A stretch of DNA of 24,239 nucleotides, taken from IMG/VR virus record IMGVR_UViG_3300046512_000150, positions 1 through 24,239 of that record, one strand, 5' to 3'. The notes beneath the pieces are model-generated. The model did not search any database and was not told the DNA's origin. It worked only from the letters and a program-made list of their open reading frames with translations. Shown here piece by piece: positions 19,787 through 23,843 of this stretch. A program made the translations under genes and the position numbers. How positions within the stretch are numbered: position 1 is the first letter of the stretch; each line of letters opens with the position of its first letter. Source of the DNA: a virus.

Positions 19787-19996
19787 TCACTCCGGGGCCA
19801 TCATCACCGCGAGCGTCATCTTGATGAACTCCTCATTTTTGTCGATGACTTCCAGAGCGCCGCGCACGTTGTCGGTGACGTCAGCTGACCCGCGCTGCTC
19901 GACCCAGTTCGACAGCTCCATGATGGCGGCTTCGAGGGCGAGCTGGTTTTCGTTGATCTTGAACAGCAGGGGCGGGAGCAGGTCTGAGTTTGGCAT
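19787..19996 (-). CDS. 69-aa repeated cargo-zone protein, copy 1
   Basis: The protein is acidic and helical (LLFKINENQLALEAAIMELS, then a VEQRG turn and a second helix ending KMTLAVMMAPE). Two further copies lie at 20998 and 23634 on the same strand. By hand alignment copy 1 differs from copy 3 at three of 69 positions (9, 14, 41). A GGAGG ribosome binding site stands at the same distance before each ATG, so all three should be translated. No family is recognised. Copies 1 and 3 also share the leader TTTCAGCGTAGCA upstream of the ribosome binding site. Confidence 0.8.
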   Translation of the reverse strand: MPNSDLLPPLLFKINENQLALEAAIMELSNWVEQRGSADVTDNVRGALEVIDKNEEFIKMTLAVMMAPE

Positions 19997-20123: not shown

Positions 20124-20792
20124 TTACTGAGGAATAACTGGTTCTGCATGTTCGGCAAACTTAGGCACGTAACGATTGATGGTACTCAAGGTTTCATGAG
20201 CTATCTGGCGTACGCAGGCAAACTCTACCCGGCCTATGGGTAAACTCTGGTTGCCTTCGGAATCAAAAAAATGCCAGCCCATCGAGTTTTCGCGTGAGAG
20301 GGCCATGTAAACCTCGTCAAGCTCGGGGTCGACGTGCGCACCTCCATCTGTGTTGGCAATTTCAAGAACAAGCTTCATACGATTCATTTTGCGATTTGCG
20401 TTATCTTTTAGCACGGGGTCATTCCACCAATCGAAGAATGGAATGCGACGGGTGATGAAGCTGTCAATTCCCAGTGTGACCTTCGGTAGATTATGAATTC
20501 CAGTATCAGAAACGCGTACACCGACAAGATTGCACTCAGGTAATAGGTTATTGGGGTTAAGGGGGCCGGCTGAGTCCAAAAAACGGATGGATCGCGACCC
20601 CAGCTGATCAAGTAATGCTCGTGATTGGCGATGGCTGTAGAGCAACACCCGAAGGCTTAGCGCGATGTACCTGGCAACATCCTGGTTTCCTTGGTCATAT
20701 AAGTTACACGTAAGTTTGAGCAGACCTAACTGATCAACAAGCTCTTTCGCGAGTTCACCATTAGGTCTTGCCTTACGAGTGGTACGGGTCAT
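20124..20792 (-). CDS. Conserved-looking cargo protein of unknown function
   Basis: Started at ATG 20792 (AAAGGAT at 7 bp), the protein has 222 aa; the open frame continues upstream to a GTG at 20876, but that part lies in a noncoding direct repeat. The N-terminus is basic (TRTTRKARPNGELAKELVD), followed by a helical segment DVARYIALSLRVLLYSHRQS. Residues ~100-170 are beta-rich. The most striking element is IANTDGGAHVDPELDEVYMA near residue 150, with a GGAHVDP core that looks like a metal or active-site loop, followed by GWHFFD and a C-terminal helix RQIAHETLSTINRY. No family name can be given. It sits alone between copies 1 and 2 of the 69-aa gene and has its own terminator, so it looks like one exchangeable cargo unit, possibly for defence. 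Confidence 0.8.
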   Translation of the reverse strand: MTRTTRKARPNGELAKELVDQLGLLKLTCNLYDQGNQDVARYIALSLRVLLYSHRQSRALLDQLGSRSIRFLDSAGPLNPNNLLPECNLVGVRVSDTGIHNLPKVTLGIDSFITRRIPFFDWWNDPVLKDNANRKMNRMKLVLEIANTDGGAHVDPELDEVYMALSRENSMGWHFFDSEGNQSLPIGRVEFACVRQIAHETLSTINRYVPKFAEHAEPVIPQ

Positions 20793-20857
20793 CAATCGAT
20801 CCTTTTGATTAGGGAGCAGAGGTTGATTCGAAAAGATGCAGGAAGAGGAATCAGCTT

Positions 20858-20938
20858 GTACCAATTTTTGTACCACTGACCGTGTAACGCAGGTTCAAAC
20901 CGAGTAGTCCCAGGTAAGGAAGTGCCCGGTTTCATTGG
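20858..20938. repeat. Imperfect ~80-bp direct repeat, unit 1
   Basis: The unit starts GTACCAATTTTTGTACCACT and ends GTGCCCGGTTTCATTGG. A related unit at 21294-21371 starts GTACCATTTTTTACCACTGG and ends GTGCTCGGTTTCAATGG. By eye about three quarters of positions agree, with small gaps. The two units bracket copy 2 of the 69-aa gene. Attachment-site remnants or duplicated regulatory DNA are both possible. Confidence 0.7.
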
Positions 20939-20997: not shown

Positions 20998-21207
20998 TCA
21001 CTCTGGGGCCATCATCACCGCAAGCGTCATCTTGATGAACTCTTCATTCTTATCGATGGCTTCCAGAGCGGCGCGCACGTTGTCGGCAACGTCGGCCGCG
21101 CCGCGCTGTTCGACCCAGTTTGAAAGCTCCATGATGGCGGCTTCCAGGGCAAGTTGGTTTTCGTGGAGCTTGAACAGCAGGGAAGGGAGCAGGTCTGAGT
21201 TTGGCAT
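20998..21207 (-). CDS. 69-aa repeated cargo-zone protein, copy 2
   Basis: Copy 2 is the most divergent at the protein level, differing from copy 3 at four of 69 positions (15, 37, 46, 50). The same GGAGG ribosome binding site precedes it, but the leader beyond it is different (GAGGTCTTCGGCAT on the + strand). It is flanked on both sides by the imperfect direct repeat and stands between two different cargo units, which is what sequential insertion or recombination at this gene would produce. Confidence 0.8.
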   Translation of the reverse strand: MPNSDLLPSLLFKLHENQLALEAAIMELSNWVEQRGAADVADNVRAALEAIDKNEEFIKMTLAVMMAPE

Positions 21208-21371: not shown

Positions 21372-21389
21372 ACCACACATTGAATAAAT

Positions 21390-21409
21390 GCCGCCCTGTT
21401 TAGGGCGGC
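21390..21409 (-). terminator. Hairpin downstream of the nuclease/DndB-like operon
   Basis: GCCGCCCT (21390-21397) and AGGGCGGC (21402-21409) form a perfect 8-bp stem with a GTTT loop. It lies 33 bases beyond the minus-strand stop at 21443. The following minus-strand bases (ATTTATTC) are only moderately T-rich, so termination may be partial. Confidence 0.6.
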
Positions 21410-21442
21410 CTTCTATTCGAGCGCCTGCGCAAAGTGCCAGCA

Positions 21443-22957
21443 TTATTTCTTTACGGTAATAGGCGCGTCATCGCTTCCAGTTAGTTCGATCCACTTATCA
21501 GAGATGATCTTATTCTTCACAGCGGCGATGTTCGCAGCTGTGTTCTGAGCCAAACCCACAACCTTACGTTCGCCAGTGCTCTTGAGGGCGAAAGTTTTTC
21601 GATTGCCCGTTTTGTCAACATTTGAATTGGTAATATCGATCCAGTGCTTACGGTACCTGAGCCAATCGATCGCCAGCAACCGCTTCTTGAGCTCATCAAA
21701 TGAAATGATCGGCTCTTTCACTGGGCTTTCGGGTGCCGCCAAGGCCTCTGCGAACACAACCTCCTGATGTTTGAGCGCATTTTTAGCAGCCATTGCGGCG
21801 AGGATTGGCGCAAGTTTGTCCGATCTACACTCGAAGTACGCAAATGCAATTGCTTTCAGTGCAAACGGCCATCCATGGACGTAAAGGCGCCGAAAAGTGT
21901 CCTGTTTGGGAGGTGTTGTGGACGGCCATTGCGCCGCGAAGGCCTCATCGAGCAATTCTACGAATTCGCGGGCGAATGGAAGCAAAGGTTCGACGTGGTA
22001 ATGCTTAAGTTGCTCGGGCTTGAATCGATTGTTAGTAAGTGCTCCGAGAAGCATTTGCTCTATGCCGCTCAGGTCTACGATATTCGTGGTTGCCGTTTCC
22101 GATGTGCCGGTCGTTCTTCCATCTGCAATACGGTTTTCGAAAACTGTGCCTTTCGTCGCCCGCAGTCGTAGGTCGCTAATTGGTTCAGCAGTATTTAAGC
22201 CAATCACGAGATTTCGATTTTTCTTGGATCCACGTCCATTCCGATCTGCGAAACTTTGCCCTGCCTTGCGCGAATTGACATTCAATTCGATTTCAAGTGT
22301 CAGGGACAGTCGATCGAGTGCGCTCTTTTCGATCGCATCGATTGTATTTGCCACTGCAAACAGTGCAGCAGTTTGTGTTTGGCCATCAGATTGCATAACG
22401 GGCGACTTGGGAAGGTACAGCGTACCGTACATTGCGTTCGGATCTTCTTCATCAAAGGCAACAAAAATCGTTTTTGAAAATACCGCTTCCGATTGCCAAC
22501 CGCTGATTATCGGCAAAAAGATTGGACGAATCCCACTAATTCCCTCTAGGATATATGTTTTAAACATCTCCTTGTTGGCAGCCTTTTGCCCTTTAAAATC
22601 ACTTTGCGTGAGTTTATGGGCTTCTGCCATTTCAAGCGCGTGGTAATTTTCTTTAGGTGGATCTGCCGGATCATATTTGACAATTTCGGTGAACAGTTTC
22701 AGCGACGGATGGATCATTACGGTAATCCGTTGCTTCTCGGTTACCGCGGTTGCGACAAAACCCTTGCGACAGAGAGTGGCTCGGACGACAGTATAGTCGC
22801 CGTGTTGATGTTGGAATTCGTACTTATTCTCAAAATAGGCTTTATTCGAGTCGTTGTTCGTTTGAGTTCGAACGATTTTAAGGCCTTGATAACCAGGATC
22901 CGCGAAAATCTCATCGTTTGTGATGAGGCTTGATTTGACTTGTGGGATGTTTAACAT
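21443..22957 (-). CDS. DndB-like DGQHR-family protein
   Basis: The 504-aa protein carries the two signatures of the DGQHR/DndB group. Residues 190-200 read SDGQTQTAALFAVAN, the DGQ core with HR replaced by TQ. Residues 236-252 read FADRNGRGSKKNRNLV, corresponding to the F-x-D-L-N...K...L segment of DndB. In phosphorothioation systems DndB is a regulator associated with the DndCDE modification complex; no dndC, D or E is seen here. The remaining ~250 C-terminal residues are unrecognised, and end with a lysine-rich tail. It lies 19 bases after the nuclease-like gene in the same orientation (GGAG ribosome binding site), so the two form an operon. The region is AT-richer than the phage genes, suggesting transfer. 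Confidence 0.68.
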   Translation of the reverse strand: MLNIPQVKSSLITNDEIFADPGYQGLKIVRTQTNNDSNKAYFENKYEFQHQHGDYTVVRATLCRKGFVATAVTEKQRITVMIHPSLKLFTEIVKYDPADPPKENYHALEMAEAHKLTQSDFKGQKAANKEMFKTYILEGISGIRPIFLPIISGWQSEAVFSKTIFVAFDEEDPNAMYGTLYLPKSPVMQSDGQTQTAALFAVANTIDAIEKSALDRLSLTLEIELNVNSRKAGQSFADRNGRGSKKNRNLVIGLNTAEPISDLRLRATKGTVFENRIADGRTTGTSETATTNIVDLSGIEQMLLGALTNNRFKPEQLKHYHVEPLLPFAREFVELLDEAFAAQWPSTTPPKQDTFRRLYVHGWPFALKAIAFAYFECRSDKLAPILAAMAAKNALKHQEVVFAEALAAPESPVKEPIISFDELKKRLLAIDWLRYRKHWIDITNSNVDKTGNRKTFALKSTGERKVVGLAQNTAANIAAVKNKIISDKWIELTGSDDAPITVKK

Positions 22958-22976
22958 GATTAAGGCTCCATGACGC

Positions 22977-23420
22977 TTATTTCAGATTAGGTATTTCAAT
23001 CACCGCCGGTTTGATCGCCAGAGATGGGACATGCCCTGCGTTCCTTATTGATTCTGGTAACCGGATCATCTCAATTCCAAGATTATTAACCTCGATTGCC
23101 ATCCGAATATCATCCGGGAAGTCGAATGCCGCGATGATTGAGCGCACCGTTCTTTTGAAGTTGAATTCAACTTTGGCGCGAGCGGTGTACGCCATTATTT
23201 GCCCAATCGAACTGTAATCGGCTTGGATCTTGAATTCCCACTCGTAGATAACGTCATGCTCATCCACAGTACGCAGATCTGCTCTTATTCTGCTCGTCTT
23301 ATACGTTACTTCCCGCTGGGAAACCAAATGCCCCTGTTTATAGCGCTTCAGGTTCGCTGCGTAAAAATCCCGAATGTGGCATTCATAGGCAAAGTCCTCC
23401 CGTATATATAGGCCGTTCAT
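22977..23420 (-). CDS. Small PD-(D/E)XK nuclease-like protein
   Basis: The 147-aa protein shows the order of a PD-(D/E)XK core: an N-terminal helix with E8/E13, strand RIRADLRTV with D48, strand VIYEWEFKIQ with E62-x-K64, then SSIGQIMAYTA with Q74 and Y78. The E-x-K followed by a helix with GQ-xxx-Y is common in small restriction-type and Cas4-like nucleases. It has no DNA-binding domain of its own, so the partner gene could supply specificity. GGAAGAAG lies before ATG 23420, and the DndB-like gene follows after 19 bases. The nuclease call rests on motif layout; a structural, inactive member cannot be excluded, although D, E and K are all present. Confidence 0.65.
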   Translation of the reverse strand: MNGLYIREDFAYECHIRDFYAANLKRYKQGHLVSQREVTYKTSRIRADLRTVDEHDVIYEWEFKIQADYSSIGQIMAYTARAKVEFNFKRTVRSIIAAFDFPDDIRMAIEVNNLGIEMIRLPESIRNAGHVPSLAIKPAVIEIPNLK

Positions 23421-23481
23421 TTTTCTTCTTCCTTATTCGAGTGGATACAGCCTACAAGGTGGCACCATGAGATTGCAAGAA

Positions 23482-23496
23482 AAATCTCGCAGATTT
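23482..23496. promoter_or_regulatory. Palindrome upstream of the nuclease/DndB-like operon
   Basis: AAATCT-CGC-AGATTT is a perfect 6-bp inverted repeat, 62 bases before the operon start. GAGATT at 23470-23475 can also pair with AATCTC at 23483-23488, so the site has alternative hairpins. A repressor operator is one possible reading. No convincing -35/-10 pair was identified in this 213-base gap. Confidence 0.4.
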
Positions 23497-23633
23497 CTAT
23501 TGTGATCTCGGCGGTGTCGCATTCCGTGTCGTGTCAGGGTGCGTCGGTTCGAAGATTTTGTCTGCTATCGCTGCGTAACAGGCATATGCGATGTGGGGCC
23601 ATGCGGCGAATGTCGGAAATAGGCTGATAGCCA

Positions 23634-23843
23634 TCACTCAGGAGCCATCATCACCGCGAGCGTCATCTTGATGAATTCTTCGTTCTTGTCGATGACTTCC
23701 AGGGCGCCGCGCACGTTGTCGGCGACGTCGGCCGATCCGCGCTGTTCGACCCAGTTCGAAAGCTCCATGATGGCTGCTTCCAGGGCGAGCTGATTTTCGT
23801 TGAGTTTGAAAAGCAGGGAAGGGAGTAGGTCTGAGTTAGGCAT
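23634..23843 (-). CDS. 69-aa repeated cargo-zone protein, copy 3
   Basis: Copy 3 reads MPNSDLLPSLLFKLNENQ at the start and is close to both other copies (three and four differences). It lies upstream, in transcription direction, of the nuclease/DndB-like operon, 213 bases away. The leader after its GGAGG contains TTTCAGCGTAGCA, shared with copy 1 but not copy 2. Copies 1 and 3 could therefore recombine over about 240 bp and delete or exchange everything between them. Confidence 0.8.
   Translation of the reverse strand: MPNSDLLPSLLFKLNENQLALEAAIMELSNWVEQRGSADVADNVRGALEVIDKNEEFIKMTLAVMMAPE

Follow-up and report, generated by a model that had tools for sequence, protein, structure and literature searches.

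Does a small nuclease encoded next to a DndB-like protein, with no Dnd modification genes beside the two, form a defence system of its own? This question was raised by the initial annotation of the virus record IMGVR_UViG_3300046512_000150, which has 24,239 bases and was analysed over its whole length (positions 1 to 24,239, here called the window). The structural genes of the window (major head, tape measure, J-type tail, and spanin) resemble those of Pseudomonas phages. The operon in question, 21443-23420, lies on the minus strand near the right end of the window, with the nuclease gene followed by the DndB-like gene. Both ORFs were found at the positions first given for them, and their organization as a two-gene operon with a gap of 19 bp was reproduced. 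The limits of the operon were drawn too narrowly; it reaches further, to a terminator-like hairpin on one side and to a promoter and operator region near 23449-23495 on the other (Table 1).

Table 1. Features of the cassette and its surroundings in the window
Feature	Positions	Strand	Remark
Third copy of the 69-aa gene	19787..19996	-	beyond the 250-aa cargo ORF
69-aa phage gene (phrog_12397)	20998..21207	-	downstream flank of the cassette
Mobile cassette block	21381..23619		86.7% identical to Cupriavidus necator prophage
Terminator-like hairpin GCCGCCCT-AAAC-AGGGCGGC	21390..21409	-	end of the operon
Gene 2, predicted DndB/DGQHR-superfamily protein, 504 aa	21443..22957	-	downstream gene; DGQTQ box 191-195, FADRN 236-240
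Spacer between gene 1 and gene 2, 19 bp	22958..22976	-	
Gene 1, predicted NucS-like PD-(D/E)XK nuclease, 147 aa	22977..23420	-	upstream gene; E13/D48/E62/K64/Q74/Y78
Candidate promoter TTGCAA (23473-23478) + TAGGCT (23449-23454)	23449..23478	-	conserved in the Cupriavidus locus; weak match
Palindromic operator AATCTGCGAGATT, core ATCT-N3-AGAT	23483..23495		conserved upstream of the nuclease gene
69-aa phage gene (phrog_12397)	23634..23843	-	upstream flank of the cassette

The product of the first gene was compared with known nucleases by structure prediction and by sequence profiles. Its AF2 model (pLDDT 64, moderate) contains the elements H3-23, E32-40, E43-51, E58-66, H71-85, and E91-98, and this order, helix-E-E-E-helix-E, is that of the alpha-beta-beta-beta-alpha-beta core of PD-(D/E)XK nucleases. 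The best PDB matches of the model were EndoMS/NucS structures with Z values of 8.8, 7.9, and 7.5 (8.8 for EndoMS and 7.9 for NucS), which is just modestly above the level that the structure-comparison tool calls common; they were followed mostly by other PD-(D/E)XK nucleases (XisH, Can2, FokI, and MspJI). Because of these modest values, the assignment rests on the active-site spacing, the profile-profile comparison, and the Pfam family NucS_C (PF01939), all of which agree. Residues E13, D48, E62, K64, Q74, and Y78 are invariant in all five homologues and are spaced 35-14-2-10-4 in the window protein. The corresponding residues of NucS from Pyrococcus abyssi, E127/D160/E174/K176/Q187/Y191, have a spacing of 33-14-2-11-4 (residues from PMC7343888), and D165/E179/K181 of TkoEndoMS show the same 14-2 spacing as the window nuclease. 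Profile-profile comparison with NucS_C proteins gave an E value of 2.3e-9 at a probability of 96%. The Pfam NucS_C model itself matched two of the five homologues weakly (best E value 9.8e-4) and did not match the window nuclease, for which searches against Pfam, NCBIfam, PADLOC, and PHROGs yielded no match standing out from chance. Searching PDB sequences was not informative.

On this evidence the 147-aa protein is predicted to adopt the type of PD-(D/E)XK fold seen in the C-terminal part of EndoMS/NucS. The fold had been proposed from motifs, and the structure prediction agrees with it in the order of its elements as well as in the EndoMS/NucS proteins as best matches. The protein shares the fold, the six active-site residues, and their spacing with EndoMS/NucS but lacks the N-terminal domain of that family, which binds mismatched or single-stranded DNA; the 147 residues correspond to the nuclease core alone. 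Its active site is intact by sequence, and the protein probably cleaves DNA. A related NucS-type nuclease also occurs in putative defence genes as DUF7669-NucS_C proteins (PADLOC candidate PDC-S02). There, however, it is fused to an N-terminal DUF7669, and in the one such locus that was read (L082:8272-10079) the neighbour is an HNH-like ORF rather than a DndB-like one.

The 504-aa product of the second gene appears from profile comparisons to be a remote relative of the DndB/DGQHR superfamily. Against the Pfam DndB model (PF14072), the window protein scored 23.7 bits (E value 3e-5), short of the cut-off of 29.1; the same model matched all five homologues, with a best E value of 2.8e-6. Profile-profile comparison with ten DndB, DpdB, and DGQHR proteins gave an E value of 7.5e-5 at a probability of 62%, and DGQ and FxxxN were aligned. 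The similarity to DndB and DpdB covers a core segment with these two motifs, approximately residues 165-380, but DndB has about 360 residues in contrast to 504 here. The label "DndB-like" given in the initial annotation therefore holds at the superfamily level by the profile-profile E value, whereas the Pfam cut-off was missed and the Dnd framing is remote. No match was found in NCBIfam, and the PADLOC HMMs matched neither protein of the pair up to an E value of 10. The AF2 model of the DndB-like protein was built from a four-sequence alignment and, with a pLDDT of 39, is unusable for assessing a ParB/Srx fold.

All of the motif residues listed at the outset (D48, E62-x-K64, Q74, SDGQTQ, and FADRN) are present and invariant in the five homologues. 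The replacement of DGQHR by DGQTQ is thus a property of the whole group: the pentapeptide is neither DGQHR nor DGQQR in any member, and its DGQ part and FxxxN are retained. In DndI, mutation of the arginine R87 of DGQQR abolished ATP hydrolysis and reduced defence (PMC11662687). Because the box reads DGQTQ in all five homologues, this arginine is missing here. One bacterial DndB-like protein binds ATP and GTP (PMC12704722). The loss of the arginine suggests nucleotide binding without hydrolysis, or another mechanism.

The superfamily match could also point to a variant of the Dnd phosphorothioation system or to a dndB regulator that has become an orphan. We consider this extremely improbable, since DGQHR is not conserved, the partner that never varies is a nuclease, NCBIfam gives no match, and no dndC above the cut-off was found in any of the five carrier records, the 9.7-Mb Cupriavidus genome included. 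A true Dnd system was rejected on the latter ground and because no dndC was seen in the window.

To assess whether the two genes belong together, their homologues were collected. Five members were found, namely the window, a prophage of Cupriavidus necator, plasmid B of Sinorhizobium americanum, and two phage contigs, L006 and L007, which carry phage structural genes (in L007 those of a contractile tail, with tail sheath). Identities to the window proteins are 91% (DndB-like) and 85% (nuclease) for the Cupriavidus copy, which is located near the integrase of its prophage, 53% and 42-44% for the Sinorhizobium copy, and 53-54% and 40-43% for the phage contigs. In all five loci the nuclease gene is directly upstream of the DndB-like gene, so that the pair is adjacent and in the same order. 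The dN/dS values of the two genes were 0.17 and 0.11 between the window and Cupriavidus and 0.20 and 0.09 between L006 and L007; judged by these values, the pair is under purifying selection. Because dN/dS is low and every homologue of each gene is paired with the other, the observation is more than chance, and chance pairing was rejected. The proposal of a pair that travels without dndCDE was thereby sustained by the neighbourhood survey, in which the genes occur together on unrelated replicons and no dndC was found.

The pair is rare. Pattern scans of viral contigs with DGQTQTA and FADRNGRG revealed no further members, E. coli genomes and annotated phages gave no match to the pair, and among 398 Pseudomonadota and 369 Cupriavidus-class genomes sampled there was no convincing member except the Cupriavidus one. 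One genome match at an E value of 1.5e-4 was dismissed, as its frame overlaps a long gene of the outer-membrane-assembly type. Other sampled DndB-family neighbourhoods, in Dnd-type, Dpd-type, or unplaced context, contained no NucS-like partner, and the pairing is absent from PADLOC (2023 version), NCBIfam, PHROGs, and the open-access papers searched.

The cellular carriers also bear on the possibility that the pair supplies the restriction function to a modification system of the host, notably 7-deazaguanine (Dpd) modification, and cuts unmarked DNA. Both of them encode a dpdA-dpdB-que cluster. In Sinorhizobium the cluster (L003:8001-16415) is located on the same plasmid as the pair, and the distance to the pair is about 0.6 kb for the first gene of the cluster and 3-7 kb for queCDE/dpdA; in Cupriavidus it is found elsewhere in the genome (L078:4588-8790). 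DpdA is rare: a sample of 299 Pseudomonadota genomes contained 3 that encode it (about 1%), Cupriavidus among them. However, only two genomes are concerned, the link was noticed after the fact, and in Cupriavidus 2.8 Mb separate the cluster from the prophage that carries the pair. In the window, L006, and L007, no dpdA or que gene was noticed. We regard the connection to 7-deazaguanine DNA modification as a weak lead and a restriction function of this kind as quite improbable.

The region upstream of the nuclease gene contains a conserved palindrome. Its consensus across loci is AATCTCSGAGATT, with the core ATCT-N3-AGAT, and it precedes the nuclease gene in each of the three lineages. The window has one exact match to the core. 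The distance from the palindrome to the start codon is 74 bp in the window, 73 bp in Cupriavidus, 54 bp in Sinorhizobium (if the nuclease gene starts with the TTG at L003:7545), and 56 bp in L006; the palindrome of L007 has one mismatch. None of 20,000 shuffles gave a palindrome of such form common to three independent lineages. In L006 and L007 the palindrome is located between the -35-like hexamer TTG(C/A)TA and the -10-like hexamer TATA(T/G)T. The candidate promoter of the window is a weak match found by eye that a promoter scan did not report. The ATCT-N3-AGAT operator is new in the present analysis. In the 9.7-Mb Cupriavidus genome, the sole other AATCTCNNAGATT is found in the same prophage (L179:2689-2701), where a lysozyme-like ORF follows after about 96 bp; this site is compatible with chance and was left unused.

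DndB is an autorepressor of its own operon, where it binds a palindromic site at the promoter (PMC4507180). The placement of the conserved palindrome appears to be that of an autorepressed promoter and, being upstream of the nuclease gene, suggests autoregulation, a further likeness to DndB. We infer that the DndB-like protein binds the palindrome; either protein or a host factor could be the binder. The conserved operator favours a regulatory role for the DndB-like protein at least as much as recognition of phage DNA.

The same evidence bears on the main rival of a defence function directed at phage DNA, a toxin-antitoxin or abortive infection system. The small nuclease would be a toxin that cuts host DNA, the DndB-like protein would be antitoxin and autorepressor, and loss or inactivation of the antitoxin at infection, or loss of the cassette, would free the toxin. 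An operon of two genes in which the small enzyme precedes its partner, an operator of the autoregulatory type inside or next to the promoter, the lack of a self-protecting modification gene nearby, and the known autorepression by DndB are all consistent with such a system. Antitoxins are usually small and fast-evolving. The partner here, in contrast, has 504 residues and is more conserved than the nuclease (91% versus 85% and 53% versus 42%), and the full conservation of DGQ and FADRN suggests an active role in binding a ligand or nucleotide. Overall, we consider a toxin-antitoxin system unlikely.

The genomic setting was analysed through the cassette borders. The block shared with Cupriavidus is 2.24 kb long, has sharp edges, and ends just before a 69-aa gene. 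Its GC content is 47%, compared with 57% for the record and 61% for the structural genes. By composition and borders, the cassette is a mobile, horizontally transferred unit that has a control region of its own and a terminator-like hairpin. The three copies of the 69-aa gene in the window share about 90-94% protein identity and separate cargo units. The gene is found in at least 436 viral stretches. In other Pseudomonas prophages, ORFs within 2.5 kb of it encode AriA/AriAB (PARIS), ZorA (Zorya), AbiLi, and PtuA, and further neighbours are PD-T7-1 (E value 2.9e-175), type IIG RM, and Mrr_cat nucleases. Matches to 161 PADLOC families were obtained at 1e-10 for 133 neighbour ORFs, compared with 29 families, mostly methyltransferases, for 133 control ORFs from unrelated viral contigs. 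Non-defence cargo also occurs beside the gene (acyltransferases, LysR, and transporters). The cargo zone postulated in the initial annotation thus has equivalents that hold known defence genes, and the cassette site is a defence hotspot marked by the 69-aa gene. As five members of the pair were found, its association with the hotspot rests on one, the window copy.

Several observations were made on the 69-aa gene itself. The Pseudomonas prophage contigs L090, L115, L120, L130, L155, and L159 contain 2-3 copies 0.4-4 kb apart, and the repeated copies suggest that recombination between them shuffles cargo. A candidate cargo gene of the window, a 250-aa ORF with a GC content of 48% (20124-20876, minus strand), is located between two copies and had no Pfam or PADLOC match. 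In two contigs (L115:604-2531 and L120:1662-3586) an Mrr_cat endonuclease is encoded between two 69-aa genes beside a 308-aa protein with PD-(D/E)XK-like motifs, possibly as another two-gene defence unit. A three-gene operon of low similarity adjoins the gene at L154:1848-3781 and had no significant family match. The 69-aa gene marks a site in Pseudomonas prophages where cargo appears to recombine, and it may serve to find further defence systems.

The location in phage genomes leaves room for a module of phage lifestyle (recombination, repair, or lysogeny control) or of anti-defence instead of defence. Four of the five copies are in phage or prophage sequence, and the nuclease is closest to a family of mismatch and repair endonucleases. 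One copy, however, is on a plasmid, and the cassette was not found in 50,697 phage records and is therefore accessory. Its own control region, its terminator-like hairpin, its foreign GC content, and the defence genes held by the hotspot elsewhere also speak against a lifestyle module, which we judge improbable.

Among known defence systems, TgvAB/GmrSD of type IV are similar in that a stand-alone DGQ-box protein of the ParB/Srx superfamily, a putative placement for the window protein, is paired with a nuclease and needs no linked modification gene. GmrSD cuts DNA with modified cytosine and is stimulated by NTPs. Both proteins of TgvAB are required (PMC11411939). These systems consist of a split DUF262 sensor and HNH nuclease, whereas the pair described here contains a NucS-type PD-(D/E)XK protein instead, and membership in GmrSD was rejected because neither protein has a DUF262 or DUF1524 match in Pfam. 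The DGQ box of GmrSD/TgvAB also has the arginine for NTP hydrolysis, whereas the window box ends in Q. SspE and DndI, which act in phage defence, likewise couple a sensor of the ParB superfamily to a nuclease, but in them the sensor detects phosphorothioate and forms one protein with an HNH nuclease, and R87 of the DndI box is Q here.

Taken together, we see an even chance that the operon encodes a compact, self-contained nuclease module of two proteins, which is autoregulated and guards the lysogen against other phages. In this module the NucS-like protein would be the DNA-cutting effector and the DGQTQ protein its control subunit. The latter probably binds the ATCT-N3-AGAT operator and thereby holds expression low. 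It probably also guides or restrains the nuclease by physical interaction and releases or targets it on incoming phage DNA, which would then be restricted. A more specific version is tentative: a non-hydrolysing protein of the DndB clade would both repress the operon and license the NucS-type nuclease, and phage DNA or a phage-induced metabolite as trigger would free expression and cutting together. Self/non-self discrimination is unexplained under every reading, the best one included.

If the pair is indeed a defence system, the DGQ-box module of the ParB/Srx type known from GmrSD, SspE, and DndI would combine with a different class of nuclease, with DGQ-box protein and nuclease as two separate proteins and without a modification partner. 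A DGQ box that is naturally deficient in hydrolysis would then still work, and the role of nucleotide hydrolysis in the superfamily would be directly testable through the substitution Q195R.
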